Source: Phycisphaerae bacterium (GTDB lineage Bacteria > Planctomycetota > Phycisphaerae > UBA1845 > PWPN01). Taken from it: a stretch of 48,741 nucleotides of DNA. Positions within the stretch are counted from its first letter, which is position 1; each line of letters begins with the position of its first letter. A model generated the notes under the pieces. It saw only the letters and a program-made list of their open reading frames with translations. It was not told the DNA's origin and did no database searches. The stretch covers positions 1 through 48,741 of the forward strand of contig JAAYDF010000198.1 in the NCBI GenBank assembly GCA_012729395.1, given 5' to 3'. Below are positions 3,729-43,395 of this stretch, one piece after another. Both the position numbers and the translations under genes were made by a program.

Positions 3729-4529
3729 ATGAGCGGACGAACACGAGTTACGAGCCGGGTGGGATTGTGGTTGTTGGTCGCGGCTAGCGTGGTGCCGATG
3801 CTGGGCTGCGGGAGTGTGGCCGGGCCGCTTAGGGCTGGCAGGACAGACGTCGAACGCGAGCAGCTCATCAAGCCGGGCACTTTTGGCAACAATGCGGCAG
3901 CCGATCGCCGTCGCGGGTTCTTCGACTTCTGGAATGAGCAAGTGATTCGTGAGGACGTCGCGGTCAGCACGGTCTTCATGGGTGACTCGATCACCGAGTT
4001 GTGGCAGCTTGGGGTCTACTTCGTGCCCAGCGACGGCCTGATTCTCAATCGAGGGATCAGCGGCGACCTGGCCACGCACATGGCCAAGCGATTCCAGGCG
4101 GACGTGGTTCAACTCCACCCGCGGCAGGTTGTCATCTTGGCGGGTACCAACGACGTGGCCCGCATGTCCAGCGGGGGCAAGACGGACGAGGAGATCATTA
4201 CCTCAGTGACGACCTCGGTGCAGGACATGATGGGCCAGGCTCGGGCGGCGGGTATTCGCGTGCTGGTTTGCTCCATCCTGCCGACAAACAGCGACACCAA
4301 GAACCACGAGCCCAAAGCTCGCATTCTGCCGCAAATCAACGAGAAGCTGCGGGCCGCCTGTACGGAACAGGGAGCCATCTACGTCGATTACGCGGAAGAG
4401 ATGCGCGACGACCAGGGGGCTCTGCTGAAGGATCTTGCCCGCGACGGTTTGCACCCGCACTACGCCGGCTATCGCATCATGGCCGACGCTCTCAAGGAAG
4501 TCGCCGCCCGGCACGGGCTGCGATTGTGA
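3729..4529 (+). CDS. SGNH/GDSL-type hydrolase, lipoprotein
   Basis: This 266-residue protein is a probable esterase or acylhydrolase anchored as a lipoprotein. A signal peptide ends in the lipobox VPMLGC, with the lipidated cysteine at residue 27. All four SGNH blocks are present. GDSIT gives Ser87, NRGISGD gives the block II glycine, GTND gives Asn141, and DGLHPH carries the catalytic Asp/His pair near 239-242. The start is supported by a GGAGG about 6 bp upstream. Proteins of this type in planctomycetes often de-acetylate carbohydrates (related to PAF-acetylhydrolase-like esterases), which fits the second esterase 77 bp downstream. Substrate is unknown. Confidence 0.9.
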   Translation: MSGRTRVTSRVGLWLLVAASVVPMLGCGSVAGPLRAGRTDVEREQLIKPGTFGNNAAADRRRGFFDFWNEQVIREDVAVSTVFMGDSITELWQLGVYFVPSDGLILNRGISGDLATHMAKRFQADVVQLHPRQVVILAGTNDVARMSSGGKTDEEIITSVTTSVQDMMGQARAAGIRVLVCSILPTNSDTKNHEPKARILPQINEKLRAACTEQGAIYVDYAEEMRDDQGALLKDLARDGLHPHYAGYRIMADALKEVAARHGLRL

Positions 4530-4606
4530 AGCTGATCGCTTGCGGTGTCGCATGACGGCCAGAGCCAATCGGTTCACGATGTCGCGGTCCCAAAGGAGCT
4601 ACCAGC

Positions 4607-5761
4607 ATGTGGATTGGCGGCAAGTTGCTTGGTTTGCTGTTGGGGACGGCCGCGTCCGGAGCGGAGACTCGCCCGGCCAATCCTCCGGTTCGATGGCGGT
4701 CCGATCCGCCCGTGATTCGCAGCTCCTGGGATGATCTGTTGGAGGGTATCACCAGCCGCGAGGAGTGGCTGGCGCACAAAGAGGTCTTGCGGCAGCGATA
4801 CCTCGATCTCTTGCGCGACGATCGCAAGCCGGCCAAGCCGCCGCTCGATCTGCGGGTCGAGGAGTCCGTGGTCGTTGAAGATGCTTACGTCCGCAAGCTG
4901 ATCAGCTACCACGTCGAGGCCGACGAGCGGGCCCATGCGTACCTGGGCGTGCCGCTGAACCTCACCGGCCCGGCGCCGGGGGTGGTTGCCCTGCACGGAA
5001 CCTTCAAGCAGGGCAAGGAACAGGCGTCAGGCCTGCTCGACAACCCCGAGAAGGCCTATCTTGACCACCTCGCCCGGCGCGGGTACGTGGTTATCGCCCC
5101 GGATCACTTTGTGGCTGGTCATCGCATCCCGCCGGAAGGCCCGTACGAGACCCGCCGCTTCTACGAGAAGCATCCGGAATGGACGGCGGTCGGTAAGTTC
5201 ACCTACGAGCACTCCATCGCGATCGACGTGTTGCAGTCGCTGTCCGAGGTGGACCCCGAGCGCATCGGAGCCATGGGACATTCGTTGGGCGGGCAGGGCA
5301 CCTATTTTCTGGCAGCCTACGACGAGCGGATCAAGGCCGCGGCCAGCAATTGCTCCGCGGCGTTCTTTCGGCACAACCCCGGCGTCGAGCACTGGGCTCG
5401 CAATCGCTGGTACGTCTACTTCGGTCACGTCAGGCCCATGCTGCTGGCCGGCCAACTGCCGCCCATCGACATGCACGAGATCATCGCCCTGATTGCTCCC
5501 CGCCCGTTCCTTGACCTTTCGGGACTCAACGACGGCAGCCCGCTCATCCAGCGTCAGCGGGTGCTGATGAACCTCGCGATCATGAGCGTTTACGAGCTCG
5601 AAGATGCCCCCGCCCACTTTGCGTTTTACAGCCATGGCCAAGGCCACAGTATCCACCATGATTCCCGCATGCTGATTTACGGCTGGCTGGACAAGCATCT
5701 CAAGCCGCCGGAAGCCACGCAGTCTCGGTTGGTCGGGGCGGGAGCGATGAATAACGAGTGA
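4607..5761 (+). CDS. Secreted alpha/beta hydrolase (acetyl-xylan esterase / dienelactone hydrolase-like)
   Basis: This 384-residue protein has a short N-terminal hydrophobic segment (residues 5-17) and an alpha/beta-hydrolase core from about residue 85. The oxyanion strand is 'VVALHG' (126-131), the nucleophile elbow GHSLGG places Ser226, and likely partners are Asp309 in 'GLNDG' and the histidine cluster around 343-351 ('HGQGHSIHH'). This is the layout of S9/DLH-type esterases including acetyl-xylan esterases. The start follows an AAAGGAG about 10 bp upstream. It is 77 bp downstream of the SGNH hydrolase on the same strand and is probably co-transcribed. The pair suggests de-esterification of polysaccharides, which is inference. 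Confidence 0.85.
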   Translation: MWIGGKLLGLLLGTAASGAETRPANPPVRWRSDPPVIRSSWDDLLEGITSREEWLAHKEVLRQRYLDLLRDDRKPAKPPLDLRVEESVVVEDAYVRKLISYHVEADERAHAYLGVPLNLTGPAPGVVALHGTFKQGKEQASGLLDNPEKAYLDHLARRGYVVIAPDHFVAGHRIPPEGPYETRRFYEKHPEWTAVGKFTYEHSIAIDVLQSLSEVDPERIGAMGHSLGGQGTYFLAAYDERIKAAASNCSAAFFRHNPGVEHWARNRWYVYFGHVRPMLLAGQLPPIDMHEIIALIAPRPFLDLSGLNDGSPLIQRQRVLMNLAIMSVYELEDAPAHFAFYSHGQGHSIHHDSRMLIYGWLDKHLKPPEATQSRLVGAGAMNNE

Positions 5762-6059
5762 TGGGTGCTGGGTGAGCGGGGGCACTGCGGCTGGGGGCGG
5801 CCGATCCCTACTGGCCGGCAGGTGCGATCCATGCCTGTTGTGTGTTCTTAACTCATTTGAATAAAATGGTTTACATTCACTTCGCGGTTGCGGGCTTCTC
5901 GCCCGTGATGATTGACGACGAAAAATTATTATCTTCATCAAACTATTTCTGAGTGTTTGTGTCTTTCCTGGTGGAGACGGGACCTGTGGGTCGCCGACAG
6001 GGAGTCGCGAGCCGAGGTCCGGGGCCCAGAGCCTCCGCGAGAGGCCGGGAGGATTTGCC
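5762..6059. other. Intergenic region upstream of the repetitive secreted proteins
   Basis: This 298-bp stretch has no gene. Its second half (about 5850-5950) is clearly AT-rich against the high-GC background and is the likely promoter region of the downstream pair. No box pair with good spacing could be picked with confidence. Confidence 0.4.
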
Positions 6060-6779
6060 ATGAAACGCATCGCACTTTTCGCAGCGGGTTTGATGTTGAG
6101 CGGCGGCCCGGCGGTCTGGGCGGCGTCGGCCACCGCGTCGTCTGTGGCCAGCAATGGGGGCTCCAGCAGCGCCAGCGCTCAGGCGGTCGGTCATGCGGAC
6201 GCCACCGCTCATGCTGGGGCGACCCGCGGGGGCCAAGCGGTCGCGGACTCGGTGGCGATCGGGGATGGCAACGGGTATGCGGCCAGTGACGCCGTGGCAG
6301 CGGCGGATCGGGGTCTGGCGATCAGCAATTCGCGGGCGGATGCCCGTGGGTGGTACGGCGGGAGCGCCCTGGCGACCAGCGAGAGCATGGCTGGGGCGAT
6401 GGGCGGGGTGGCGATCAGCAACAGCGACGCACTGGCCAGTGGGACCCTCGGCGGGCAGGCCCGCAGTCAGTCCTACTCTACTTCGCTGACCCGCGGGGGC
6501 GTGGCCCGTAGCGACAGCAGCGCGGTGAGCGAAGGCTACTGGGGGGGCAGCGCACGGAGCGTCAGCGATTCTCTCGCGGACACTGTCGGGGGTCGGGTAG
6601 CCAGTCGCGTGGTGGCCTTGAGCGGTGCCCGGTATCACGCTTCGGCCGAGGCCAACGGACGCGGGGTGAGCGTCAGCGGTTTCAGCCGCACTCGTCCGGT
6701 GGAGGTGCGGGCGACCAGCCAGGCTCAACGGTTCGGGTCGAGCCGGTCCAATGCGGTCGCGGTGCAGGTCCGGCGGTGA
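6060..6779 (+). CDS. Secreted Ala/Gly/Ser repeat protein, probable beta-solenoid
   Basis: This 239-residue protein begins with a clear signal peptide (MKRIALFAAG..., cleavage near residue 21). From about 57 to 178 it consists of units 15 or 16 residues long. Each opens with GG (residues 57, 100, 115, 131, 146, 162, 177; degenerate openings at 72 and 85) followed by x-A-x-S-x-S-x-x-A/S. Later spacings are 15, 16, 15, 16, 15. Such short Gly/Ala/Ser repeats with alternating small residues are what beta-rolls and solenoids look like (the trimeric-autotransporter head and some ice-interacting proteins are the known analogies). No family was recognised. A GGGAGGA precedes the ATG. It is followed after 70 bp by a related gene and the two are probably an operon. 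Confidence 0.8.
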   Translation: MKRIALFAAGLMLSGGPAVWAASATASSVASNGGSSSASAQAVGHADATAHAGATRGGQAVADSVAIGDGNGYAASDAVAAADRGLAISNSRADARGWYGGSALATSESMAGAMGGVAISNSDALASGTLGGQARSQSYSTSLTRGGVARSDSSAVSEGYWGGSARSVSDSLADTVGGRVASRVVALSGARYHASAEANGRGVSVSGFSRTRPVEVRATSQAQRFGSSRSNAVAVQVRR

Positions 6780-6849
6780 AGGCGGTCAGATGGTCGCGCG
6801 GTTGACGAGGATGACAGGCCAACGAACGGATGATGAGAGGAGATCAGCC

Positions 6850-7413
6850 ATGAAAGCGATGCGAAGATATCTCGGCGGAATGGGGATGATGCTGGCGATG
6901 AGTGCGAGCGTGATGGGCGGGCAGGCGATGACCCAGGTGTCGGCCAGCCACGGGAACCGGTCGGGTGACGGGGTAGCCTCGGCGATGGCCAACTACGAAG
7001 GTCAGGGCGGGCAGGGTATCGCCCGGACCCGTACTGAGACCGGCGACATCAATTTGGCTCGGGCGCTGGCGGTGGGCGTGGACCGCAACGGGATGGACAT
7101 CTCGTTCAGCCACGCGATCGCGGGACCGTTCGGGATTCTGCCGGCCTACGCGGGGACCTTCAACCTGAGCATCGGCCGGGACGGGAGCGTGGCGGGCAGT
7201 TACGGCGGTGCTTTGGCGAGCGGTGGTTTGGTTCGGTCGGCGGAGGCGGGTGGGGTGACCAGTTCGGGGCCGCACGGCAGCACCGCCCAAGCGACCGCGG
7301 GCGGCTCAGCCACCCCGGGAGGCAGCGTGCGGGCTCGGACCGACTCGTACAGCCGGCCCAGTCTGCGGAGCTTGCCTCGCCAGCCGGTGACCGTGATCAG
7401 GCGCGCCCGGTAG
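6850..7413 (+). CDS. Secreted Gly/Ala/Ser-rich protein, partner of the preceding repeat protein
   Basis: This 187-residue protein of unknown function has a Met-rich signal peptide (residues 1-25, ending MGGQA). The mature chain is rich in Gly, Ala and Ser, with strands such as 'GQGIARTRTETG', 'GTFNLSIGRDGS' and 'GGLVRSAEAGG'. The repeats are looser than in its neighbour. The tail is basic and ends VIRRAR; the neighbour also ends in a basic 'QVRR'. I chose this ATG over the in-frame one at 6751 because a GAGAGGAG lies just upstream and a signal peptide follows directly. The 70-bp spacing and shared composition suggest the two proteins work together outside the cell. Confidence 0.75.
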   Translation: MKAMRRYLGGMGMMLAMSASVMGGQAMTQVSASHGNRSGDGVASAMANYEGQGGQGIARTRTETGDINLARALAVGVDRNGMDISFSHAIAGPFGILPAYAGTFNLSIGRDGSVAGSYGGALASGGLVRSAEAGGVTSSGPHGSTAQATAGGSATPGGSVRARTDSYSRPSLRSLPRQPVTVIRRAR

Positions 7414-7683: not shown

Positions 7684-9102
7684 ATGTCCATCTGTCGTCA
7701 GGGTCAATCCGCGAGTCGGGTTATTGTGGCCGGCTTGGCCGTTTGGGTGGCCTCGGCGGCGATCGGTTTGCCGGCGGCTCAGGGGCAGGAGCAGCCGGGT
7801 CGCAAGCCCAATATCCTTTTCATCTTCACCGACGATCAGCGGGCGGACACGATCGCCGCTCTGGGGAACCCGGCTATCCAGACACCGGCGTTGGATTCTC
7901 TGGCCCGCCGGGGTTTTGTGTTCAGCAACGCCTACTGTTTCGGCAGCAACTGCCCGGCGGTTTGTCTGCCGAGTCGGAATATGCTCCTCAGCGGTCGGAC
8001 TTACTTCCGATGGGAGGGGCCGCAAGCCTCTGCTGATCAGCCCAATTTGCCGGTCACCTTGAGGCAAGCGGGCTATGTGACCTACCATCACGGCAAGAAG
8101 GGCAACACCGCGCTGAAGATCCAGGAGAAGTTCGATGTCAACAAGTACGTCGCCGACGATGCGGATCGCAGAAGCGAGCCGGCGCTGGCGATCGTGAATG
8201 AAGCCATCGACTTTCTGAGGAACAGAAAGGATGATCGGCCGTTTCTGATGTATCTGGCTCTCGGCAACCCGCACGATCCGCGTGTTGCTCCGCAGTCCTA
8301 TCTGGATTTGTACGAGGGTAATCGGATTCCGTTACCGAAGAACTTCCTGCCAGTTCATCCGTTCAACAACGGCGAGATGGTCATTCGCGACGAGCTTCTG
8401 GCCGGGTGGCCGCGGACGGAGGGGGAGATTCGGCGCCATGTGCACGAGTACTACGCGGTTATCACCGCGATGGATCATCAGATTGGCCGCCTGCTGGGTG
8501 TGCTGGGGGATCTTGGGTTGGAGAAGGACACGATCGTGATCTTCTCGTCTGACAACGGGTTGGCGGTCGGGAGTCACGGGCTGATGGGTAAGCAGAGTCT
8601 TTACGAGCACAGTACGAAGGTGCCGTTGTTGTTTGCCGGGCCGGGGATTCCGCAAGGTCGCAGTGACGCTCTGGCTTATCTGTTGGATGTGTTTCCCACG
8701 ATCTGTCAGTTGGCCGGGGTTGACGTGCCCGCGGGCTTGGATGGTCTGGGACTCAAGCCGGTGATCGAAGGCCGGCAGGAGAAGGTCAGGAACCATGCGG
8801 TGTTCGCCTATCGAGATCTGCAGCGGGCGATTCGGGGATCTCGCTTCAAGTTGATCCGCTATCCGAAGATTGGCAAGACGCAGTTGTTCGATTTGCGGTC
8901 GGACCCGGATGAGTTGCGGGACTTGTCTGATGATGCTCGCTATCAGGAGCGGCAGGAACGGCTGATGCGGCGTCTTGCCGAGGAGTTGCGTCGGCTGGGT
9001 GACGAGGCTCCGCTGACGGTTGAGCCGCCGGAAGATCCCACGTTTACGCCACCGACGGGCGAGGCGTTGGAGAAGCTGCTCGCACCGTTCAAGGCGAACT
9101 GA
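7684..9102 (+). CDS. Type I sulfatase, secreted
   Basis: This 472-residue arylsulfatase-family enzyme hydrolyses sulfate esters, probably on a polysaccharide. A signal peptide covers about residues 1-35. 'NILFIFTDDQR' supplies the paired metal-binding aspartates (50-51). CLPSR at 94-98 is the C-x-P-S-R motif, where Cys94 is converted to formylglycine. 'SSDNG' and 'HGLMGKQSLYEHSTKVPLL' give the later metal and substrate-binding blocks. Length and motif order match the family, so it should be active once matured. No formylglycine-generating enzyme is in the window. An AGGAA precedes the ATG. The gene converges with the lipoprotein gene 37 bp downstream. Confidence 0.95.
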   Translation: MSICRQGQSASRVIVAGLAVWVASAAIGLPAAQGQEQPGRKPNILFIFTDDQRADTIAALGNPAIQTPALDSLARRGFVFSNAYCFGSNCPAVCLPSRNMLLSGRTYFRWEGPQASADQPNLPVTLRQAGYVTYHHGKKGNTALKIQEKFDVNKYVADDADRRSEPALAIVNEAIDFLRNRKDDRPFLMYLALGNPHDPRVAPQSYLDLYEGNRIPLPKNFLPVHPFNNGEMVIRDELLAGWPRTEGEIRRHVHEYYAVITAMDHQIGRLLGVLGDLGLEKDTIVIFSSDNGLAVGSHGLMGKQSLYEHSTKVPLLFAGPGIPQGRSDALAYLLDVFPTICQLAGVDVPAGLDGLGLKPVIEGRQEKVRNHAVFAYRDLQRAIRGSRFKLIRYPKIGKTQLFDLRSDPDELRDLSDDARYQERQERLMRRLAEELRRLGDEAPLTVEPPEDPTFTPPTGEALEKLLAPFKAN

Positions 9103-20854: not shown

Positions 20855-21739
20855 TCATTTTGCGGACTTGGGAGCCTGCATCAAGTCGTCGACGGCTTTG
20901 GCCAACTCGGCGAGATAGTCATCCCCCTTGGGGTGGCAGGTGAGTGCGACAAGGATGTAGTGACGGTTCGGGCCGGTGATGACCGCGGCGTCGTGGAGCC
21001 AGTTTTCCCAGGTGCCCGATTTGCGGATGATCTGGAGATCGCGGCCGGCGAGGCCTTGGACGAATTTGGCGTCGTTGTGGGGGATCTCGGGAGAGGCGAA
21101 GATCTCGCGCATGGTCCTGGAGGCGTCCGGGGAGACGAGTTTGCCCTGTTCGAGGAGCAGGAAGTACCGGAGCACCTGCCGGAGGGTGGCGGCGTGGGAG
21201 TGATCGCCGACGGGATCGGGGTACCGCTCGTTGTCTTTGCCGTAGTGTTTGCCCACCCAGATGCCGCCGCCGTGGTCCTCATCGTAGAAGCCTTGGTCAT
21301 TGAGAATGCCCTGGATGGTCTTGAGGCCGATTTGCCGAGAGTACTTGGCGGCCATCTCGTTGCTGCTGACCTTGATCATGAGGCCCAGTTCGTGTTGGGT
21401 GACGGGATCGAGCTGGGTGGCCGCCTCGGGGTGTGACTGGAAGTAGGCCAACAGGATACCGATTTTGGGCACACTGGCGGCGTATTCGATGCGATCGGGA
21501 TGGATCATGGCCAGCCGCGGACTTGTAAGGTCCAGCACGCCGAGGGCGGTCTGCTCGGTGGTCATGTCGAATTGCTTGCGTAGGGCGGTATCAATCTGTT
21601 CGATCCTTGCCTGCAGGTTGGGATCGACGGGTGATTCGTAAGTGAGCGTGTACCGATCGATCGGCCGACCCGATGGTCCAGCTGTGCAGGAACAAAGGCA
21701 GGTTACCGCGGGTAGAGTCATCGCAAACAGGTGTCGCAT
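20855..21739 (-). CDS. Serine hydrolase of the class A beta-lactamase / penicillin-binding fold
   Basis: This 294-residue protein begins with a signal whose cysteines ('TCLCSC') suggest a lipoprotein. The beta-lactamase-like active-site triad is visible: SVPK places Ser89 and Lys92, 'SSNEM' gives the SxN element at 125-127, and 'KSGTW' is the KTG equivalent. A class A omega-loop with its Glu is not evident. The enzyme may therefore be a carboxypeptidase or esterase-type relative rather than an antibiotic-resistance determinant. I chose the ATG at 21739 because the signal starts there with a GGAG upstream; the longer frame to 21970 overlaps the sulfatase region. It lies 113 bp downstream of that sulfatase on the same strand. 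Confidence 0.8.
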   Translation of the reverse strand: MRHLFAMTLPAVTCLCSCTAGPSGRPIDRYTLTYESPVDPNLQARIEQIDTALRKQFDMTTEQTALGVLDLTSPRLAMIHPDRIEYAASVPKIGILLAYFQSHPEAATQLDPVTQHELGLMIKVSSNEMAAKYSRQIGLKTIQGILNDQGFYDEDHGGGIWVGKHYGKDNERYPDPVGDHSHAATLRQVLRYFLLLEQGKLVSPDASRTMREIFASPEIPHNDAKFVQGLAGRDLQIIRKSGTWENWLHDAAVITGPNRHYILVALTCHPKGDDYLAELAKAVDDLMQAPKSAK

Positions 21740-21852
21740 CGGGAGGCTCCGTTGGGGGCTTAGTTCGCACCTGGTGGGAAGATACAGTTCTGGGCCGGGC
21801 ACGTAAAGGCCGGCCAAGATGGGCTTTCTTGCCGATCGCGTTGCGGGGTGTT

Positions 21853-23337
21853 CTATTCCGTTGGATTGGCGCGGCGTTGGCGTTCGTTTTTGCGGGGTTG
21901 CCGCGGTCGGTCGGCGGGGCGATCGGCTTTGTTGGCCGTGGGCATGGGGGCCTTGATCCGCTCGCGCCACGCGTTAAGCCGGGCGTGGAGATCCCTGGCG
22001 TGGTCGGGCATGTCGGCGGCGAGGTTTCTCTTCTCGCCGATGTCCTCGCGGAGGTTGTAGAGTTCGAGCCGGCCGTCCTCGATAAACTCCATGAGCTTGA
22101 AGTCGCCGACGCGGATGGTACTGACGGGCAAGGTACGCCACTGGTTCTGTCCGGACCCGAGGTAGCCGGGGAAATGCCAGAACAGGGCCTCGCGTTTGAG
22201 TTGGGCCTTGCCACCGCTGGTCAGCAGTTCGAGATAGCTGACGCCGTCGAGCGGGTATTCAGGCGGAGGCGTAGCCCCGGCAAGTTCGAGCAGCGAGGGG
22301 TAGAGATCCACGCTGTTAATCGGCTGGCTGCATTCCGTGCCGGCGGGGATTCTGCCCGGCCAGTGGAAGATATAAGGTACGCGGACGCCGCCTTCGTAGA
22401 GCATGCCCTTGCCGCCGCGCAGCGGAGCGTTGTCGGTGGTGCTTTTTGCGAACGTGATGCCTTCTCGCTGATATCCACCCACGCCGCCGTTGTCGCTCGA
22501 GAAGATGACCAGGGTGTTGTCCGCGAGCTTGAGCTCGTCGAGTACCCGCATGACGCGGCCGACGCTTTCATCCACGCTGGCGATCATGGCGGCATAGACC
22601 GGATCGTGGTGGCCGCCCGCGGGTGCCTTGGGTTTGAACCTGGCGATCAGGTTGTCCTTGGCCTCGTGCGGTGTATGCACCGCGAAATGCGACAGGTAGA
22701 GGAAGAACGGCCCGGCTTGGTGTCGGCGGATGAAGTCGACGGCTTTGTCGGTGAGGAAATCGGCGAGATAGGTGCCCTCGGGGTAGTCGACCTCGGGGCG
22801 AGTCTCAAAGTTGAAGTGCTTGCCCATGGAGACGATGGCCTCGTCGAATCCTCGCTGGCCGGGGTGGTGCGGCCCTTGCTCGCCGAGGTGCCACTTGCCG
22901 AAGAGACCGGTGGTGTAACCGGCAGATTTGAGTGTCTGGGCGATGGTGATCTTGTCGAGCGGCAGGGCGGGCACGTTGTCCGCGGGTCGCAATGGACGGC
23001 TTCGCCAGTTAAAGCGATCGATGCTGCCGACGGTGTAGACGCCGGTGCGCGGCCCGTATTGCCCGCTCATCAACGCCGCCCGGGTGGGCTGGCAGTTCGG
23101 GCCGCAGGTGTACCCGCTGGTGAAGCGGATGCCTTGTGCGGCGAGGCGGTCGATTTGGGGCGTTTCGTAGTACTTGCTGCCGTAGCAGGCGAGGTCGGTA
23201 TAGCCGAGATCGTCGGCGAGGATGAAGACGATATTGGGCCTGGCTCTGGATGTCTCGGCGACGGCGGCGGATACCGGTCCGCATACGATGAAGGTAGCCA
23301 GGAGGCTGATCGCGAGGAGGGTTTGGACGGGACGCAT
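21853..23337 (-). CDS. Type I sulfatase, secreted
   Basis: This 494-residue arylsulfatase-family enzyme has a signal peptide (about 1-28). 'NIVFILADDLGYTDLACYG' supplies metal-binding Asp42-Asp43. CQPTR (82-86) is the C-x-P-T-R maturation motif, the Thr variant common in PVC bacteria. Further blocks include 'TGLFGKWHLGE', 'SSDNGG' and 'LRGGKGMLYEGGVRVP', as in N-acetylgalactosamine- or choline-type sulfatases. The C-terminal 30 residues are an unusual Arg/Pro-rich tail (about 465-494). A GGGAGA precedes the ATG. It differs from the sulfatase at 7684 and is not a recent duplicate. It is 113 bp upstream of the serine hydrolase, both on the minus strand. Confidence 0.95.
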   Translation of the reverse strand: MRPVQTLLAISLLATFIVCGPVSAAVAETSRARPNIVFILADDLGYTDLACYGSKYYETPQIDRLAAQGIRFTSGYTCGPNCQPTRAALMSGQYGPRTGVYTVGSIDRFNWRSRPLRPADNVPALPLDKITIAQTLKSAGYTTGLFGKWHLGEQGPHHPGQRGFDEAIVSMGKHFNFETRPEVDYPEGTYLADFLTDKAVDFIRRHQAGPFFLYLSHFAVHTPHEAKDNLIARFKPKAPAGGHHDPVYAAMIASVDESVGRVMRVLDELKLADNTLVIFSSDNGGVGGYQREGITFAKSTTDNAPLRGGKGMLYEGGVRVPYIFHWPGRIPAGTECSQPINSVDLYPSLLELAGATPPPEYPLDGVSYLELLTSGGKAQLKREALFWHFPGYLGSGQNQWRTLPVSTIRVGDFKLMEFIEDGRLELYNLREDIGEKRNLAADMPDHARDLHARLNAWRERIKAPMPTANKADRPADRPRQPRKNERQRRANPTE

Positions 23338-23453
23338 GACAGTTCTCCCATGGCCAGCGCGTTGTTGGGTTTGCTCTGGTGCTGGACTTGTCGTGGCGGG
23401 CTGGCCACAAAGCCGATCCGATGGTGGCCGGCCGGCCGACTGCTGAAGTGATG

Positions 23454-27354: not shown

Positions 27355-30300
27355 TCACTTGGGTGGATCTGAGACAAGGACGCAGAGTCGTAGCCAGCCG
27401 GGCGCGTTGGCGACATTGAGTCGGGGGTTGAGGAATCCGCCGTCGAGATCCTTGGGTTGGGATGCGACTCGGCTGACGACTTCGGATTGGATCTGGCCGG
27501 TGAGCCAGTCGTCAAGCCGACCGCTGCCGCGCAGGGCGTAGACGAACAGGGCGTTGGAGACTTTGAGGTCTCGGGCGCCTGGGTATCGCATGGATTGGAG
27601 GGCGGCGGCGGGCTCGCCGGTGGCGATCTGCCAGGGTACTCGCCAAAGCTGCGCGGGGTTTGCGGGCTGCTGAGGTGGCGGCCCGGCGCTGACCATGGTC
27701 CAAACCGAGATGTGCAGGTTTGGGTTCTGCCCGCCGGTGCACAGGCCTGCCACATTATAGAGGGCTTCGGGGACTTGGACCTTGCCTTGCACGGTTTGTT
27801 CGGTTCGAGTTTCGGCGTCGGCGGTGATGTCGGGTCGCGCTCCCGGGAAGGGCAGATGCGGGAGGGCGAGGAAACACATGGGCCCGTCGGGTGCGATGAC
27901 GATGCCGAAGGAGCGGGTTTGCGATTTGAAGAAATCGGCTTCGCCGACAACGGGGCCGAGCAGGGTGGCTCCGAGTGTTCGGCCGACCTCGGCGTCGGCT
28001 TGCTGGACCATTCGGGCCGTCGTTTGGCTCAACAGCCGTGCCGGTCCAAGGCGTACGTAGCGAGCGTAGACGGCTTGGGAGCGGTTCTCATCGGTGTCGG
28101 TGGGGGTCAGCCAGTAGATGGCGTGGACGTGGCGTTGGCCCCAGAAGTACTCGATGAAGCGGCACGGGCGTACGAAGATGGCGTTGTCGGTGCTGCGTCC
28201 AGTGGAGGACAGATCCTGCCGGGCTTTCTGGGTCCAGTCTTCGAGTGACTGGGCGCCACTGCCGCTCTCGTTGGACATCCACTTGAGGCGGGCGATTTGT
28301 TGCAGGTACTGCCAAGCCTTGGCGCTGCCGCCGGGCACATCGACCGGCTGACCGTCCTGTACGGTGACATTGGCGGCGGCCAGATCGTTGATGATTTCGC
28401 GTTCGAGCTCTTGGCGTTGAACCCACCATTGCAGGTACTGCTGGCGATCGGTGGGTGTCTGGGCCTTGAGGTGTTCGATGAGTTTGGCGGAGACGGTCTC
28501 CGCGGGCTTCTCTGTGCCGATCTCGTCGGTTTTGAGGGCCAGTGGCGGCAGTGTTTCGCCCCATGGGTAAGCGAGTTGGCTGGTCACCTGCTCCGGAGTT
28601 GCGGTGATGCGCAGCGGCTCGCCCAGCAGTTCGGGTTCGCCTTCCGCCTCGCCCAGCCAGGTCGCGAAGGCTCGCAGCCAAGTGAGGTTCCCCTGTGCCT
28701 GCTCCAGCAGGGCGGGTACCAGTGCGGCCAAGACCTCGGGTGGCCGGACCTCGATTCGCTCGCTCTCGATTGTCAGGGTGTGGCGTTGAGGGGCTCCGAT
28801 CTCGATCGGCATGCGCTGCTCGCGGAGCCGTTCTTTGACTGCCGGCGGGAAGTCCAACCGCAGGGTTACCGCCTCGCGATTCTCGATGGCGGACACATCG
28901 GCGAGGCTCCAGGTCAGTTCCCGACTCTGGCTGGCCGCGGGAAACTCGACTTTGCCGACTTCGCGACCTTCGCCGGAGTCGAACAGGTGCACCTGGAGCG
29001 GCTCGGCGATTGTGCCGTCGTCCGCGACGTCGAGGCGGATGCCTATCTTATGCTCGGCAAGCGTGGAGCGTTTCGTGCGGCTGTCCGGGTGGACGAAGGC
29101 TACGGTGGCCCGGTCTTCGTCGATCACCTCGATGATGATTGGGTCGGATTTGAGGTTCTCATAGGCGGCGTCCTGGCTTTCGCAGCGTAGCCGAATCGTG
29201 GCCGTGTGGCTGCCGTCCACCGTCCGATCGCGGATCGCGGCGATGGTGATGGTCTGCGGACTGGACCAGTTGTCGGTGGTGAAGTTGAGCCTGTTCGGGG
29301 TGATTCGGACCTGGTCGGCCGCGTCGTGTTCGAGGCTGATCTGGACGGGCGCGGTGGGGTGCGAAGTGAGCTGCAGCGTAGTCGTGTCCTCCTCCCCTTC
29401 GCGGATCTGCATACGTGATTGGCCGCAAGTGAGCCCGGCATGGTCGTCATCGACGATCGCGACGGTGGCGGTGGCGGGTTGTTCGAGACGGGCCCCGGTC
29501 GCGGACGTCGCCTGGACGGTGACGAACTTGCCGGGATTGACGATCTGGTCGTTTACGGCCTCGATGGTCAGCTCGTGTTCACTCTGCCCGGCCCGCAAGT
29601 CCACGGTCTGGTCTTGAGAGAGGCCCGATACGGTGAAGTGCTTGCCCGGCTCTGCGGTAGATCCCTGGAAGTCAAAGGCGATGGTCACGGCTTCACTGGT
29701 CTCGCCGGCGAGTTTGAGCGTGATGGTCGCCTTTCCTCCCGCCTCGGCGATGCGTGGCGGGCTGGGATTGATGTTCATAGTGAGGACGACCGGCGGGAGG
29801 GTTGTCGGCGCGTGTCCTTCGGCGGCGGTCGCGGTGGCGGGTGATACGTCAGTGGGTGTGGGCAAGTCTGTCCGTGGGGCTGGGTCCGTCGGACGGGGTG
29901 AGACGCTGGTGGTGTCGGTTTGTCCGGGCGAGGGGGGCTGCCGGCTCAGCCACCAGTAACCACCGGCGCCGGCCGCGAGGACGACGGCAAGCCCGGCGGC
30001 GGCGAGTTGAAGCTGCCGAGCGCGGCGGTTTCGCTGTCGTCGGGCATGATCCTGGGCCGCTTCGGTCAGTGCTTCCTGTGCCTTCTGCTGGATGCGGCGG
30101 GCTTCGGCGTGTAGATCCTGGACATAGGGAACCGCCAATACGGCCTGAGCGCAGTCGATGGCTCCCCGGTGGTCGCCGGCGGCGTGCGCTTCGTTAGCCG
30201 CACGGAGATCACGGCTCGCCTTGGACTGCCGGGCGGCAATGTCCTTTTGGGTGGCCTGGATCTCCTCAGTCAGGCTTTTGACGCGGTTGCGGATGTCCTC

Positions 30301-33300
30301 GTTCCCGTGGTGCCTGACCGCCTCCGCCAGTCGGAGGGCCTCGTCGAGGTTCTCCAACTCGGCGGGGTCGTTGCGTTTGCGTTGCTCGAACTGTGCTCGT
30401 GCGAGCTTGAGATCGCTTTGAGCTTCTTCGATATCGAGGGTTTTGAGGAAGCTCTGGAGCGCGGCGGCCATATCGGCGGCGGTGGGGTAACGTTCTTGAG
30501 GATCGTCGGCGATTGCCCGTTCGCAGATTCGGGCCAGTTCGGGTCGAACGTTGGGTGCGGCTTTGGCTAGAGGCTTGTAGTGCGCCCGCAGTGTATTCAG
30601 CAAGGTCTGGGAGATCGACGCCACCGAGAGGGCGGTCCGGGCGGCGGCATCGCCGGGCTCGTGGAAGGGGGGCCGGCCGGCGAGCAGCTCGTAGAGCACG
30701 CAACCCAGGGCGAAGATGTCAGCCCGCTGATCGACCTGGTCGCCCATGGTGGTGATGACTTCGGGTGCGATGTAGCCTGGGGTGCCGCAGAGCCCGGTCT
30801 TGGCTCGCTGGTCGGTCATGGATCGTATGTACGCCAACCCGAAGTCGATCAACCAGGGGCCTTCGCCTTCCGCTTCGCCGAGGTAGATGTTCTGCGGCTT
30901 GACGTCGCGGTGCAGTACGCCGTGCTGGTGGGCATAGGCCAGGGCCTCCGCCACGGCGATGAGGATCTCGGCTGCCTGCCGTTCCGTTGGCTTGTGTTTT
31001 CGCGTGTACGAGGCCAGGTCCTGGCCTCGGATGTAGTTGGTATCGAAGTAGCGGCGGCCCTCGATGATGCCCGAGCTGTTGATGTGCATGATGTGGGGAT
31101 GGCTCAGCCGGGCGACGGCCTTGGCTTCGTTTTCCAGGGCCTTGTCCAGCTCGGGACTGATAGCCGCGGTGGGGGTCAGCTTGAGGGCGACCTCGCGGTC
31201 CAGGTCCAGGTCTCGGGCCCGGTAGACTTCGCCCATTCCCCCCCGTCCGAGCGACTCGATGATCTCGTATTTGTCGCCGAGGCGGTCGGAAGGGGCCAGG
31301 GGCTGAATCTGCGGGTCGACGACTACATCGCTGCTGCGGTCGTCCACGAAGTTGTCGATCGTGGTCAGTGATACCTGCAGCCACTGGGGCAGGCTGGATT
31401 TGGATTCGACGAGTTCACCGCTGTCACCGGCGAGTTGTGCGCGTTCAGCTCGCCGCCGCAGGTGCTTCCGGATGCCAGCGATGAGCACCTCTGCTTGTCT
31501 GTTTTTGGCTCGCTTGCGAAGTAGAGTGGCCACTTGGGCTTGCCGGCTGCCGGGCTCGCTCTGGGAGAGGATCTGCTCGAAGGATCGCAAGGCGTTGGAG
31601 AACTGCCCCTGGTCCGCCAGGGCCTGGGCTGATTCCAGCGGGGGCAGGAGATCGATCAACTGCCGCGCTGTTCTGGCGAGGGCATCTTCGGTATGCGGGT
31701 TCGCCAGAACATCTTCTGTTAATCGCCTGGTGGTGACGAGATCTCCCAATTGGAAGCTGGCCAGGGCCCGCTCGTAGTCCGACGCGGTTGCCTCGCGTGC
31801 CTGCTTCTCGGCCGCCACCAGGGCGTCGGTCTGCTGGATGAGCTGCTCGCTCCGATCGCGCAAGGCGAGATCCGCATGGTCGGTTTCGAGCACCTGTCGG
31901 GCGGCGAGGACCACGGCGTCGAACTGCCTGCGTTTGAGCATTTCCTCGGCTTCGTCGAGACGTTGCCGGAGTTGCTCGCGTTCCCGTTCGAGCCGTTCTT
32001 CGATCCCGCGAAGGAGTTCCTGGGCCGACTCGACGATTGTCGGGAACTCGGAGCGCACGAGCAGCTCGGCCACGTGCCGAGCCTTGATGAGGTGGCCCTG
32101 TTCGGCCTCGGACTGCGCCCGGCCGAGATCCTGCTCTTGTCGTTCGAGTTGGCGGATGTTCTGATCGACAAGGTCGAAGACCTGCTCGCGCAGTTGAGCG
32201 ATACGTCCGGCCAGGTCGCGAGCGCGTTCTTGCTGTGCGGGCGACAGGTGGTGGATGGCCACGACCTCTTCGATGATGGCGTCGGCTCGGCTCAGGCTGG
32301 TTTCATCGAGCATGCGCGGCGGCTGATTGATTGTCGCCTCGACGGCGTCGAGCAGTGCTTCGGCTCGCTGGCGGGCCTGGACCTGGTGCTCGCGCTGCTC
32401 GCTGATTTGCGATTCCTGATCGTCGACGCGGGTTCGCAGCGTGCGGGCCTGGTCGGCCAAATCGGGGTGGGCTTCCTGTCGCAGGATCGGTTCGAGCAGG
32501 TTGCGTGCTCCGTCGAAGTCCTGATCGGCGAGCAGGTCGGCGGCTTGTCTGAGTTGTCCGCGCAGCTCCTCGCGAAGCCGCTGGCGGTCTTCCTCCTTGC
32601 TGCGATGCTGGGTGAGTTGCGTGGCCAGGGCGGCTGCTTCGTCGTCGATATCGATGAGCCACTTGGGGTGTTGGTCGCGCTGGCGCAAGCCCTCATCGAG
32701 CTTGTCCCACTCGCCGTCGTCGCGGAACTGGCGCAGGCGGGCCAGCCAGGCATGTGCGGTCTCGCGGATCCGCTCGATGTCCGGATCAAGCTCGGCGCGG
32801 CGGTGGGCCAACGTTTGCCACAGGGCCAGGCTTTGTTGATACAAGGTGGGCGGCAAGGCTTGCGGCCCGCTCGATTGTTCAAGGTAGCTTTGCAGAGAGG
32901 CGATGGCCGCGTCGGCCTCGGGGAGGCCGAGGGGTTGGTTGCCGGTCAGGGCGGCTTCGATTTCCTGTAGACTGCGGTGGGTGTTCTGAGCCGCGGCGGC
33001 CCGCTGCCGGATGGTTTCGACGCAGCGGTCCAGCTCTCCGGGCAGGTTCGCGGGACGGGGTAGAGCGATCAGCTCGCTTGCGGCCGTCTCCCAATTCTCG
33101 CCGGCCATGTTCCGGAGGTTCTTGGCCGACGCGAGGAGGAAGCCCGCTGTTTCCGTGACGTTGGCGGGCATGTCGGGCGCCTCGGCCAGTAGCCTGATAT
33201 CGCTTGCCACCCGCTCGTCAGCCAGTTCCTCCCAACTTGCCTGGGAGAGCCGGTCCGCGATGAGCTCCAGTCGTCGGCCCATGATTTCGTCGGGCTCGAC

Positions 33301-34191
33301 GGGCTTGATCCCGGCGGCTTTGAGTCGCTTGACGATGTCCGGAGCCGACGGTCGCCCTTGGGGAATGCGGTCGATCATCTCCCAGAGCAGCTCGCGCCAT
33401 ACCTTGACGGTCGGTTCCTCCGACTCGCGCAGGTCGGGTCGCAGGGTGTTGAACGGCACGGGAGCGCCGAAGGCCATGGTCTCGGCCAACTCGGCACTGC
33501 GCAAGGCCTCCGGCTCGTTGTAGAAGTAGGGGTGGCGATGCTCGGTCAGGAGATAGAGCAGGAATCCGGCCGCGACCACGTCTCCGCTGCGTTCGAAGCT
33601 GCGGTAGAGTTGTGTGCCGTACTTCTCCGGGTCGATGAAGGCACAGATGCGGTCGTCGCGATCAGGCACGTTGGGGTCAAGGATCTCCCAGATTCCGGTG
33701 GCGCCTTCGATGAGGGTTCCGGCTTTGGCGGCCTGGACGGCGAGGTTGAGGAACCGCTGCTCGCCCAGACCGTCGCAGATGGCGGGCCCGAATCCGAAGT
33801 CGGCGACCTTCTCGACGCCGTTGAGGTCTCGGAGCAAGACGCCGGGGCACAGGCCGCCGTGGACCACGGGTTGGCGGGCCTGGGTGGAGTGTGCCGCCCG
33901 CAGCCCATCGAGCAGAGCGATGGACATGCGCCAGATTGTCTCCCGGTCGGCGCCGGGGGTGGTGGGGTCGAAGAGGTCGGCCAAGGGCAAGGGGGCGGCC
34001 GGCTCGTGCTCCACGAAGAAGCAATGATCGTCTTCCTGCAGCGTGCCCACGAGTTGGAGGACATGGGGCGATCGCGAGCCGAACTGCTTCTGGGTCTCGA
34101 TGGCGGCATCGAGTCCCTTGGCCAATCGCGCACGAGCCTGTTCGTCCAGGTCGGGGGGTTTGAGTACGACTCGCCTGTACAACTGGCTCAT
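27355..34191 (-). CDS. Giant membrane Ser/Thr kinase: pseudokinase, helical region, kinase, Calx-beta ectodomain
   Basis: This 2278-residue protein has several parts. Residues 1-295 are a kinase-like domain without glycine loop and with HGGLCPGVLL in place of HRD-KP-N, but with DFG at 131-133: a pseudokinase. Residues 300-950 are helical and charged with TPR-like pairs. Residues 975-1245 are a complete Hanks kinase: GRGGMGEVY (982-990), Lys1004, HRDVKPQN (1094-1101), DFG at 1116 and APE at 1142. A second helical stretch, about 1250-1390, precedes the single membrane helix at about 1393-1415. Outside are a Pro/Thr linker, two Calx-beta-like domains (about 1470-1690) and some 590 unassigned residues. 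The canonical kinase should phosphorylate cytoplasmic partners. The ATG follows AAAGG. Confidence 0.9.
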   Translation of the reverse strand: MSQLYRRVVLKPPDLDEQARARLAKGLDAAIETQKQFGSRSPHVLQLVGTLQEDDHCFFVEHEPAAPLPLADLFDPTTPGADRETIWRMSIALLDGLRAAHSTQARQPVVHGGLCPGVLLRDLNGVEKVADFGFGPAICDGLGEQRFLNLAVQAAKAGTLIEGATGIWEILDPNVPDRDDRICAFIDPEKYGTQLYRSFERSGDVVAAGFLLYLLTEHRHPYFYNEPEALRSAELAETMAFGAPVPFNTLRPDLRESEEPTVKVWRELLWEMIDRIPQGRPSAPDIVKRLKAAGIKPVEPDEIMGRRLELIADRLSQASWEELADERVASDIRLLAEAPDMPANVTETAGFLLASAKNLRNMAGENWETAASELIALPRPANLPGELDRCVETIRQRAAAAQNTHRSLQEIEAALTGNQPLGLPEADAAIASLQSYLEQSSGPQALPPTLYQQSLALWQTLAHRRAELDPDIERIRETAHAWLARLRQFRDDGEWDKLDEGLRQRDQHPKWLIDIDDEAAALATQLTQHRSKEEDRQRLREELRGQLRQAADLLADQDFDGARNLLEPILRQEAHPDLADQARTLRTRVDDQESQISEQREHQVQARQRAEALLDAVEATINQPPRMLDETSLSRADAIIEEVVAIHHLSPAQQERARDLAGRIAQLREQVFDLVDQNIRQLERQEQDLGRAQSEAEQGHLIKARHVAELLVRSEFPTIVESAQELLRGIEERLEREREQLRQRLDEAEEMLKRRQFDAVVLAARQVLETDHADLALRDRSEQLIQQTDALVAAEKQAREATASDYERALASFQLGDLVTTRRLTEDVLANPHTEDALARTARQLIDLLPPLESAQALADQGQFSNALRSFEQILSQSEPGSRQAQVATLLRKRAKNRQAEVLIAGIRKHLRRRAERAQLAGDSGELVESKSSLPQWLQVSLTTIDNFVDDRSSDVVVDPQIQPLAPSDRLGDKYEIIESLGRGGMGEVYRARDLDLDREVALKLTPTAAISPELDKALENEAKAVARLSHPHIMHINSSGIIEGRRYFDTNYIRGQDLASYTRKHKPTERQAAEILIAVAEALAYAHQHGVLHRDVKPQNIYLGEAEGEGPWLIDFGLAYIRSMTDQRAKTGLCGTPGYIAPEVITTMGDQVDQRADIFALGCVLYELLAGRPPFHEPGDAAARTALSVASISQTLLNTLRAHYKPLAKAAPNVRPELARICERAIADDPQERYPTAADMAAALQSFLKTLDIEEAQSDLKLARAQFEQRKRNDPAELENLDEALRLAEAVRHHGNEDIRNRVKSLTEEIQATQKDIAARQSKASRDLRAANEAHAAGDHRGAIDCAQAVLAVPYVQDLHAEARRIQQKAQEALTEAAQDHARRQRNRRARQLQLAAAGLAVVLAAGAGGYWWLSRQPPSPGQTDTTSVSPRPTDPAPRTDLPTPTDVSPATATAAEGHAPTTLPPVVLTMNINPSPPRIAEAGGKATITLKLAGETSEAVTIAFDFQGSTAEPGKHFTVSGLSQDQTVDLRAGQSEHELTIEAVNDQIVNPGKFVTVQATSATGARLEQPATATVAIVDDDHAGLTCGQSRMQIREGEEDTTTLQLTSHPTAPVQISLEHDAADQVRITPNRLNFTTDNWSSPQTITIAAIRDRTVDGSHTATIRLRCESQDAAYENLKSDPIIIEVIDEDRATVAFVHPDSRTKRSTLAEHKIGIRLDVADDGTIAEPLQVHLFDSGEGREVGKVEFPAASQSRELTWSLADVSAIENREAVTLRLDFPPAVKERLREQRMPIEIGAPQRHTLTIESERIEVRPPEVLAALVPALLEQAQGNLTWLRAFATWLGEAEGEPELLGEPLRITATPEQVTSQLAYPWGETLPPLALKTDEIGTEKPAETVSAKLIEHLKAQTPTDRQQYLQWWVQRQELEREIINDLAAANVTVQDGQPVDVPGGSAKAWQYLQQIARLKWMSNESGSGAQSLEDWTQKARQDLSSTGRSTDNAIFVRPCRFIEYFWGQRHVHAIYWLTPTDTDENRSQAVYARYVRLGPARLLSQTTARMVQQADAEVGRTLGATLLGPVVGEADFFKSQTRSFGIVIAPDGPMCFLALPHLPFPGARPDITADAETRTEQTVQGKVQVPEALYNVAGLCTGGQNPNLHISVWTMVSAGPPPQQPANPAQLWRVPWQIATGEPAAALQSMRYPGARDLKVSNALFVYALRGSGRLDDWLTGQIQSEVVSRVASQPKDLDGGFLNPRLNVANAPGWLRLCVLVSDPPK

Positions 34192-41109: not shown

Positions 41110-43395
41110 TTAGTCGCTTGTACGGCCCATGAGCAGGGCGCGGGCTTGCGGATGGTCGGGAGCAATCTCCAACGTGCGCTGCAGGGCGTCGCGGGTTTCC
41201 TCGGACAGGCCGAGTTGATGCAGAATCGTTGCCCGAGCGTAAGGATAGTCGGCGACACCAGGATCGAGTTCCTCGGCCTTGTGCAGATGGCGGATCGCGG
41301 CTTGGGGATCGGCGAGCTGGTTCTCGGCGAGGGCGAGGTTGTACCAGTAGCGGCTTTGGGCGGGGTCGCGTTCAACGGCCAGCCGTAGGGCGTCGCGGGC
41401 CTGGTCGATGTGACCGAGTTCGCCGTAGAGCAGAGCGAGCGAGTAGGGGTGGGCCGCCTGGTCGGGCTCCGCCGCCGTGGCCTTCTTCAACTGCTCGACG
41501 GCGTCTTGCGAACGCCCGGTGTTGTGCAGGGATATCGCGTAGGCGTGGTTGAACATCGCGGGGCCTGGATCCCAGCGGATGGCTTTCTCGTACCAAGGCA
41601 ATGCCTGGGCGGGCTGGCCTCGGTCCGCGAGGAGATTGGCCCACTGGAAGGCCCCGAGCGGCTGGTCCTGGTTGAAGTTGAGGTAGCCCATCAAGTCGCG
41701 TCCGGCGAGCGAGTCGAGATCTAGGTGGTGGCGGAAGAGCCAGGCGGTTTTGACTCGCACCAATCGCGAGGGGCTGTCGAGCTTCGGTCTGAGCCGGTCG
41801 GTCAGCAGGGGGGCGAACGGATCGAGGGCCTCGATGGCCGCGGCCTGAGGGACGGGCGAGGGGTCGTTCAGCATGTCGGCGAGTGCGTCGATCAGGGCCG
41901 AGCGGGTCGCCGGGTCGCGCACCGCGGGCACCGACGGGGCCAGCATTCGGGCGTATACCGCACGCCAAGTGGGGTTGGTTTCCTTCTGGAGCAGGGCCAG
42001 GGCTTCGGGCACGGCGCTCAGGTCGTGGGCTTTGAGCCGTGCGAGTGCCCGAGCTCGATCGCGCGTCGGGCGATCCATGCGTTTGCCGTACCATTCCTCG
42101 ACGAAGTACAGAGACCAGTCCACCTCCTCGTCGGCGTGGCAGCGGGTGCAGGCGTTGGGGATGCCGTGCTCCTTGGTCAGGAGCGGGTCGGGGATGGTCA
42201 TGCCGTGGTCGTGCCGCCAATGTCGTTGCATGTACGCGGTCTGAGGCATGTGACAGTCGAAGCAGGCGAAGCCGGCCGCGTTGGGTGGGTGCTGACTGTG
42301 CTCGGCCTCGTCAATGGGAATGCGGCCGGCGATGCCCTGCTGGTGGCAGCGGAGGCAAAGACGGTTGTCCTTCCGAGTGACTTTCATGGTATGCCAGTCA
42401 TGGCAGTCGGTGCAGCGGACGCCCCAAGCGTGCATGGCGCTGAGGCTAAAGGCTGCGTACTCGAAGTCCTCGTCGTGGATTTGGCCGTCCGGGTAGAACA
42501 CTTCCGAGGTGTCTGGCAGGACGAGGTCGAAATGTTCGTGGAAATCGTCACCGGGCATGAACCGGCCGGTCAACTCGGCGCGGCGCGAATGGCAGGCGGC
42601 GCAGGTGTTGATGTACCGTTCGCGGTCAAAGGGCCGCAGGGTGGGGTCGCCCTCCTGGTCTCGGTGAGCGGTCTGCCATTCCCCGTGGTCGCGCATCGGG
42701 CCGTGGCATTGTTCGCAGCCGATGCCCAGTTCGAGGTAGGTGGTGCGGTAGGCGTCGGTCTTGGCGTCGTAGTTCTTGTGGAAACCGGTGGTGTGGCAAG
42801 TGGCGCACATGGAGTTCCAGTTCATGCCGCGGCCGGTCCAGTGGCCCCATTCTTCTGGCCTGCGGTCCTCCTCGCCGTAGACGTTGAACCATTCCAGTTT
42901 GGCCGGGTCGAACGCCAGCTCAGTGACCTGGACTCGCCCGCCGGGCCAGGGGATAAGGTACTGCCGAAGTGGGTCGTGCCCGATGACCTCGACGGGCTCG
43001 TATGCCTGCGGGCGTCCGTCGGGGCCGGTGGTGGTGATGGTGTAGCGGTCGTTGACGCGCTGAGCGAGTGAAACCTCGGATCCGTGGGGAATGAGCCGCG
43101 GCGGATCGAAGGCATCCTGATCGGCGGTCGGTGAGACTGGTCGCTGGGCCAGGGCATGGTGCGAGGTCCGCCAGTCGTCGTAAGCCTCCTGGTGGCACTC
43201 GGCACAACTGTATGAGCCGGCATAGGCTTTGTAGGGCTCGATGCCCGCGGGCATGGACGTTGGAAGCGCGCCCGCCGACACTGCCCGAGCAACGCCCATG
43301 AGCAGCATCCCCAGTAGAGCGACGCGGCCCGCCATCCATGTCGTGAGGCCGAGACTTGGTCCGCATGCTTCGTTTGTGTACGTACGCCTATTCAT
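41110..43395 (-). CDS. Octaheme cytochrome c fused to HEAT and TPR repeats
   Basis: This 761-residue exported protein has a signal peptide (about 18-42) and eight CxxCH heme-binding motifs at residues 64, 197, 227, 265, 328, 347, 378 and 416. Their spacing and segments such as 'SYSCAECHQEAYDDW' and 'GIGCEQCHGP' resemble the octaheme cytochrome family, including hydroxylamine-oxidoreductase-like and nitrite-reducing relatives. From about residue 430 it continues with HEAT-like helical repeats, and from about 560 with at least five TPRs ('QPAQALPWYEKAIRWDPG' and later). This fusion occurs in planctomycetes. No partner oxidase or cytochrome-maturation gene is near, and the electron donor and acceptor are unknown. 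A GGAG lies 5 bp before the ATG. Confidence 0.9.
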   Translation of the reverse strand: MNRRTYTNEACGPSLGLTTWMAGRVALLGMLLMGVARAVSAGALPTSMPAGIEPYKAYAGSYSCAECHQEAYDDWRTSHHALAQRPVSPTADQDAFDPPRLIPHGSEVSLAQRVNDRYTITTTGPDGRPQAYEPVEVIGHDPLRQYLIPWPGGRVQVTELAFDPAKLEWFNVYGEEDRRPEEWGHWTGRGMNWNSMCATCHTTGFHKNYDAKTDAYRTTYLELGIGCEQCHGPMRDHGEWQTAHRDQEGDPTLRPFDRERYINTCAACHSRRAELTGRFMPGDDFHEHFDLVLPDTSEVFYPDGQIHDEDFEYAAFSLSAMHAWGVRCTDCHDWHTMKVTRKDNRLCLRCHQQGIAGRIPIDEAEHSQHPPNAAGFACFDCHMPQTAYMQRHWRHDHGMTIPDPLLTKEHGIPNACTRCHADEEVDWSLYFVEEWYGKRMDRPTRDRARALARLKAHDLSAVPEALALLQKETNPTWRAVYARMLAPSVPAVRDPATRSALIDALADMLNDPSPVPQAAAIEALDPFAPLLTDRLRPKLDSPSRLVRVKTAWLFRHHLDLDSLAGRDLMGYLNFNQDQPLGAFQWANLLADRGQPAQALPWYEKAIRWDPGPAMFNHAYAISLHNTGRSQDAVEQLKKATAAEPDQAAHPYSLALLYGELGHIDQARDALRLAVERDPAQSRYWYNLALAENQLADPQAAIRHLHKAEELDPGVADYPYARATILHQLGLSEETRDALQRTLEIAPDHPQARALLMGRTSD

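Follow-up and report, generated by a model that had tools for sequence, protein, structure and literature searches.

Flat beta-solenoids are known from proteins of very different function. SufB and SufD are cytosolic iron-sulphur assembly proteins with a beta-helix core. The antifreeze protein of the beetle Rhagium inquisitor is a compressed two-sheet solenoid with small residues inside. Curli are built from an exported two-sheet solenoid, CsgA, and typically have a two-gene arrangement of a major and a minor subunit. The repeat number of curli varies, from 5 to 15.5 repeats according to an excerpt of PMC10192328. For genes under the control of ECF sigma factors, the excerpted part of PMC8103513 gives AAC and CGT as the hallmarks of the -35 and -10 promoter elements.

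Here we describe two neighbouring genes, ORF1 and ORF2, in a stretch of 48,741 nucleotides from a Phycisphaerae bacterium (the window). We lean, by a modest margin of belief, towards reading them as a single module under ECF sigma control, whose two exported beta-proteins work together. The putative promoter ahead of ORF1 (Table 1), which lies outside the interval covered by the preliminary description of this locus, is the strongest result of the analysis.

Table 1. Features of the gene pair and its putative promoter in the window
Feature	Position	Strand	Remarks
Putative ECF-sigma-type promoter	5941..5964	+	AAC (-35-like), 16-base spacer, TGTCT (-10-like); motif conserved upstream of ORF1
ORF1, predicted exported beta-solenoid protein	6060..6779	+	239 aa
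ORF1 putative signal peptide, residues 1-21	6060..6122	+	By eye; precedes ASATASS
ORF1 residues 100-191, six regular half-coils	6357..6632	+	GG at 100/115/131/146/162/177
ORF2, predicted exported beta-meander protein	6850..7413	+	187 aa from conserved ATG
ORF2 putative signal peptide, residues 1-23	6850..6918	+	By eye
ORF2 predicted ten-strand core	6919..7356	+	AlphaFold2 model, mature residues 2 to 146, pLDDT mostly >90
ORF2 basic tail	7357..7410	+	Model pLDDT 50-60 at end; +6 over last 20 residues

The gene pair and its distribution

The two genes were described earlier as lying 70 bp apart, which is the distance from the ORF1 stop to the conserved ORF2 start (6780-6849). The earliest ATG in the ORF2 frame is at 6751; relatives support 6850, and the start was therefore set there. 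Signal peptides had been claimed for both chains, and a visual reading of the two sequences agrees; for ORF1, the assignment goes with an alignment in which the N-terminal part varies and the mature part is nearly gapless. A GDSL hydrolase, an alpha/beta hydrolase and a sulfatase flank the pair (3729-5761 and 7684-9102, plus strand), and in a clustering of 21 loci they were not conserved neighbours of it. Elsewhere in the window, on the minus strand, are a protein of 2278 aa that has a Calx-beta match besides a protein kinase domain (27358-34191) and a protein joining multihaem-cytochrome-like and TPR matches (41113-43395). Two further open frames, of 1177 aa (45159-48689, minus strand) and 592 aa (21673-23448, plus strand), have no Pfam match at 1e-5.

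Neither ORF1 nor ORF2 has a match in Pfam at E<=1, which for ORF1 includes the SufBD sequence family, and Pfam and NCBIfam gave no match to a TPS or autotransporter domain in either. NCBIfam returned no relative (the single row for ORF1 has a negligible E of 0.16), nor did a sequence search of the PDB, where all matches of ORF1 have E>=0.88. The pair is not described in the literature consulted on beta-solenoids and secreted proteins of Planctomycetes and on functional amyloid with ECF sigma factors.

Within the window's family the pair is found in 6 of 13 genomes, its own included, with constant gene order. Profile searches of the order detected ORF1 in 45 of 114 genomes and ORF2 in 43, all 43 being among the 45, and neither gene in the other 69. 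The search for homologous pairs that had been proposed earlier thus finds both genes in 43 of the 114. In the two genomes with ORF1 only (G344 and G324), ORF1 is at a contig end. By our own count, the genes are adjacent in 32 of the 43 genomes, about 2.4 kb apart in one (G395), and located elsewhere from each other in ten (G309, G315, G318, G320, G323, G326, G327, G328, G329, and G335), some of which are fragmented assemblies. In G315, a single contig, about 0.9 Mb separate ORF1 from ORF2. For the co-occurrence counts (43/2/0/69), Fisher's test gives 2e-29, uncorrected for kinship. ORF1 and ORF2 therefore co-occur almost perfectly, also where the genes are apart. The pair is missing from most members of family f99, implying that it is dispensable within the order.

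Neither protein was found outside the order in the class and phylum samples. In a class sample of 298 genomes, ORF1 had 33 matches, 32 of them in the order, and ORF2 had 31, all in the order; a class match to ORF1 in G500 (E 8.7e-4, a 66-aa frame with an internal stop) was dropped as chance. In samples of the phylum, only the window's own genome was found (1/392 for ORF1 and 1/294 for ORF2). The sole second match in that genome (L002, E 0.06), with 30% identity over part of the query, was also attributed to chance; the DNA opposite it carries what we take to be lipid A biosynthesis genes. A non-exhaustive contig scan with one peptide pattern found 20 loci, whose record titles all read Phycisphaerae, Phycisphaerales, Planctomycetota, or planctomycete. 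One of them is titled 'fen_1342', and as the excerpted part of PMC11266412 places family FEN-1342 in UBA1845, the order in question is probably UBA1845 of the class Phycisphaerae.

Predicted structures of the two proteins

The spacing reported earlier for the repeat units of ORF1 is exact: the GG pairs follow each other at steps of 15, 16, 15, 16, and 15 residues. The strict pattern GGxAxSxS begins at residues 115, 131, 146, and 162, four occurrences where shuffled sequences have a mean of 0.03 (maximum 2). At a lag of 31 (15+16), 47 residues are identical against 22 expected, a value reached in none of 5000 shuffles. The alternating 15/16 spacing can be read as two half-turns of one 31-residue coil. 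The "looser repeats" ascribed to ORF2 were an overstatement, as its lag-31 identity is equalled by 647 of 5000 shuffles and ORF2 is without such a period. Its basic tail, on the other hand, holds (Table 1) and recurs in relatives: in 15 of 16 aligned rows, the window's included, the last 20 residues have a net charge of +2 to +9, and the sixteenth (L077) is cut by the contig.

ORF1 is 239 aa long in nearly all relatives, and the alignment of 30 mature sequences has only 2 gap cells and 0 insertions. AlphaFold2, given 21 sequences, produced a model with a mean pLDDT of 92.4, a pTM of 0.87 and 15 strands of 8-13 residues; confidence among the five models ranged from 92.4 down to 78.7. Across the 30 sequences, the inward positions of the strands are 91% Ala, Ser, or Gly (A 49%, S 35%, G 7%), with a mean entropy of 0.47 bits against 1.96 bits for the outward positions. 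The outward residues are of mixed kinds, with polar and charged ones (R 15.6%, D 11%, N 6.7%) besides V, T, and I.

In VIA-align, about 196-201 of the 218 residues of the ORF1 model align with SufB/SufD chains (Z 12.0-12.6, rmsd 3.2-3.4 A). It also matches CsgA of Pontibacter korlensis (8c50; Z 12.6, rmsd 6.7 A, 168 residues), with a second CsgA match at Z 9.0 (the CsgA entries named are 8c50 and 8enq), and, over 137 residues, the antifreeze protein of Rhagium inquisitor (4dt5; Z 11.6, rmsd 5.9 A). Foldseek gave no match to ORF1 at E<=0.001, the best E-value being that of FapC (1.5e-3, TM 0.13). Note that a family missing from such a list of structure matches is not thereby excluded. The 31-residue period, the 15 strands, these matches and the small inward residues together support a model of ORF1 as a flat beta-solenoid whose 31-residue coil (15+16) contains two strands. 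Sparse alignments can give AlphaFold2 the wrong handedness for curli-type solenoids, according to the same excerpt of PMC10192328, and for this reason the model does not settle the handedness of ORF1. The last strand departs from the pattern, with an inner small-residue fraction of 0.51 and charged residues pointing inward, which suggests that this end of the predicted solenoid is capped.

ORF2 is modelled quite differently. From 16 sequences, AlphaFold2 (mean pLDDT 90.5, pTM 0.80) predicted ten strands, each 9-13 residues long, and a tail of low confidence. In the model ORF2 is thus no solenoid but a meander of ten beta-strands that ends in the basic tail. Strands 4-7 have one small-residue face and one hydrophobic face. 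Structural matches in VIA are a mixture of outer-membrane barrel stretches and other meanders (best FhaC, Z 7.9, 98 residues), and naming the fold from them was dropped; Foldseek gave no match at E<=0.001. The idea that both proteins are solenoids is ruled out by this model. Prediction of each mature chain, suggested in the preliminary description as a check on its regular beta-roll, thus upholds the roll for ORF1 and replaces it by a meander for ORF2.

Promoter motifs and the predicted ECF regulon

Of the 35 distinct loci, 19 lie outside family f95, among them the window, and every one of these has the motif AAC-N16-20-TGTCT at -96 to -119 of ORF1. In f95, 13 of 16 loci have [TCG]GAATA-N15-17-CGT[CT] at -80 to -115 of ORF1, the exceptions being L021, L023, and L030. 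One or the other motif therefore precedes ORF1 in 32 of 35 loci, where shuffled means are 0.37/35 for the former and 0.20/35 for the f95 motif. They are read as ECF-type because they fit the AAC/CGT hallmark, as excerpted from PMC8103513. Note that the motif of the window's lineage differs from that of f95, and the observations on sigma genes come from f95. A stricter form, AACTATT-N12/13-TGTC, has a single match in the window's own genome (5.74 Mb), ahead of ORF1; a control pattern also occurs once, so that the position is evidence and the count is not. In six genomes of the window's family the strict form and the control pattern have five matches each; of those of the strict form, four are ahead of ORF1.

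Thirteen f95 loci have the f95 motif also on the opposite strand beside ORF1. In the loci checked by Pfam (L072, L082, and L122), the gene next to ORF1 towards which it points encodes an ECF sigma factor. Downstream of this gene in L072 comes one for a protein without a Pfam match which, judged by eye, has a single apparent membrane segment and resembles an anti-sigma factor. Where ORF2 is unlinked from ORF1 in f95, it has the f95 motif ahead of it in 8 of 8 loci. Adjacent copies of ORF2 have their own motif in the intergenic region in 2 of 25 distinct loci, and the window has none. The ORF2 of L050 (family f100), about 2.4 kb from ORF1, has neither motif as written, though a near variant is visible by eye. 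Co-occurrence and a promoter motif still shared after separation indicate that ORF1 and ORF2 act together. From the promoter motifs we predict that the two genes form one ECF regulon and appear to be switched on together. The gene pair, its conservation at the level of the order, the co-occurrence and the shared ECF-type promoters are all strongly supported.

In five f95 genomes the exact f95 motif occurs 36 times and the reversed pattern 5 times, so about one in seven of the exact matches that define the wider regulon is expected by chance. Thirty of the 36 matches became loci that were read, and their targets include ORF1, ORF2, and an orthologous sigma gene. This sigma gene is 58-75% identical to that of L072 and has the motif at loci away from ORF1 as well (L105, L118, and L119). 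Several other matches have no convincing gene downstream.

Further genes were seen behind the f95 motif. One is a second, less similar ECF sigma gene (L112, 34-40% identity; L123), which may point to a sigma cascade. Others code for small proteins, secreted or lipoprotein-like, with a high content of Tyr, Gly, and Asp (L121, L128, L129, L130, and L133), possibly further parts of the same structure, and a secreted protein with a sub-threshold LolA_like match (L109:524-1417).

Proposed role and relation to known systems

Our best guess is that ORF1 and ORF2 are an envelope or extracellular structural module, a reading based on the signal peptides, the ECF-type control and the nature of the co-regulated genes. 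An envelope signal would free the sigma factor from its membrane anti-sigma factor, and ORF1 and ORF2 would be produced and then exported by Sec. Folded ORF1 would be a rigid plank with about seven coils, and ORF2 might bind it, cap it, or tether it to the cell surface via the basic tail; the two together would make a coat, a matrix or some other structure in the envelope. The ECF-type promoter and the shared regulon make a role in the envelope or outside the cell likely, and among such roles those proposed in the preliminary description (surface layer, sheath or adhesive) are possible for the pair. More tentatively, and with clearly less conviction than we have in the module itself, the pair could be the two-component material of an order-specific, ECF-induced protein coat or fibre, in which a length-locked solenoid with a silk-like Ala/Ser interior has an obligate meander partner, unlike curli, Fap, and known S-layers.

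Other explanations were weighed against this structural module. That the two frames are spurious, or encode disordered low-complexity chains, might be supposed from the high G+C content, the skewed composition and a long open frame antisense to ORF1 (261 aa, 5943-6728, minus strand), which we take to be a high-G+C mirror frame. This reading has next to no probability left and is refuted by dN/dS values of 0.05-0.28 in five close pairs (four of ORF1, one of ORF2), by conservation across the order and by confident models of both chains; dN/dS and the relatives support ORF1 and ORF2 as real coding genes. Disorder of both chains, or absence of the pair from related genomes together with a spurious coding bias, had been named beforehand as grounds for abandoning the original idea. 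Neither chain is predicted to be disordered, and the pair recurs in relatives. Ice or mineral binding, a more speculative option of the preliminary description, is suggested by the likeness of the ORF1 model to the Rhagium protein. It is very improbable: the ORF1 of the window has no TxT, the 30 sequences have a mean of 0.4 TxTxT each, and record titles of the relatives name groundwater, fen, and sediment, not ice.

We consider two further explanations unlikely, and about equally so. In a curli-like functional amyloid, fibres would form by end-to-end stacking of ORF1 as the subunit, with ORF2 as nucleator or accessory protein. The match to CsgA, the best Foldseek E-value being that of FapC, and the two-gene arrangement are all consistent with this. 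ORF1, however, has no curlin repeat, given the absence of Pfam matches at E<=1. Its length is fixed where curli vary in repeat number, its last strand is cap-like, and the model of ORF2 is not a solenoid. Of the 45 genomes counted as pair-bearing, 25 have a match to the CsgG family, and of the 69 that lack the pair, 23 do, which is no clear association; seven of the eight best matches (E<=1e-17) are in pair-lacking genomes. The strongest CsgG-family matches of the order are those in G306, G308, G368, G374, G376, G378, and G380, which lack the pair. Given the CsgG distribution, the fixed length and the apparent cap, curli-type assembly of ORF1 is not supported, though some self-assembly may still occur. 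Alternatively, ORF1 or ORF2 could be a periplasmic stress effector that binds a ligand, a wall polymer or a lipid when the ECF system fires. The ECF-type control, the adjacent anti-sigma-like membrane protein in f95, the polar and charged outward residues of ORF1 and the hydrophobic face of ORF2 strands 4-7 would suit such a role. By eye, however, the alignments contain no conserved pocket or catalytic-looking cluster, and the uniform coil of ORF1 is more like a scaffold.

Read as an ECF-controlled structural module, the pair adds two protein families that neither Pfam nor NCBIfam names, forming one predicted regulon, and a testable model of an envelope structure in an order known chiefly through metagenomes. 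ORF1, as a natural solenoid with a fixed coil number and a near-pure Ala/Ser core, would be a test case for core folding and for designed beta-solenoid materials.

The SufB/SufD core is the best structural match over almost all of ORF1 and is likewise a flat solenoid with long strands. ORF1 differs from it in having a signal peptide and an Ala/Ser core, and the two share only 8-10% identity. Curli resemble the pair in having an exported two-sheet beta-solenoid (CsgA) and two genes, whereas ORF1 lacks a curlin match, has a fixed length and an apparent cap, and has a partner of different fold and no clear association with CsgG. The Rhagium antifreeze protein shares with the ORF1 model a two-sheet solenoid with a small-residue core, but ORF1 is without threonine arrays, and the coil length and the biology differ. 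ECF sigma/anti-sigma regulons are like the pair in their boxes (AAC...TGTCT and TGAATA-N16-CGTC) and exported targets, and like the f95 loci in an autoregulated sigma gene with a membrane anti-sigma-like neighbour; what sets the pair apart is that the predicted targets here are protein families without a Pfam entry.
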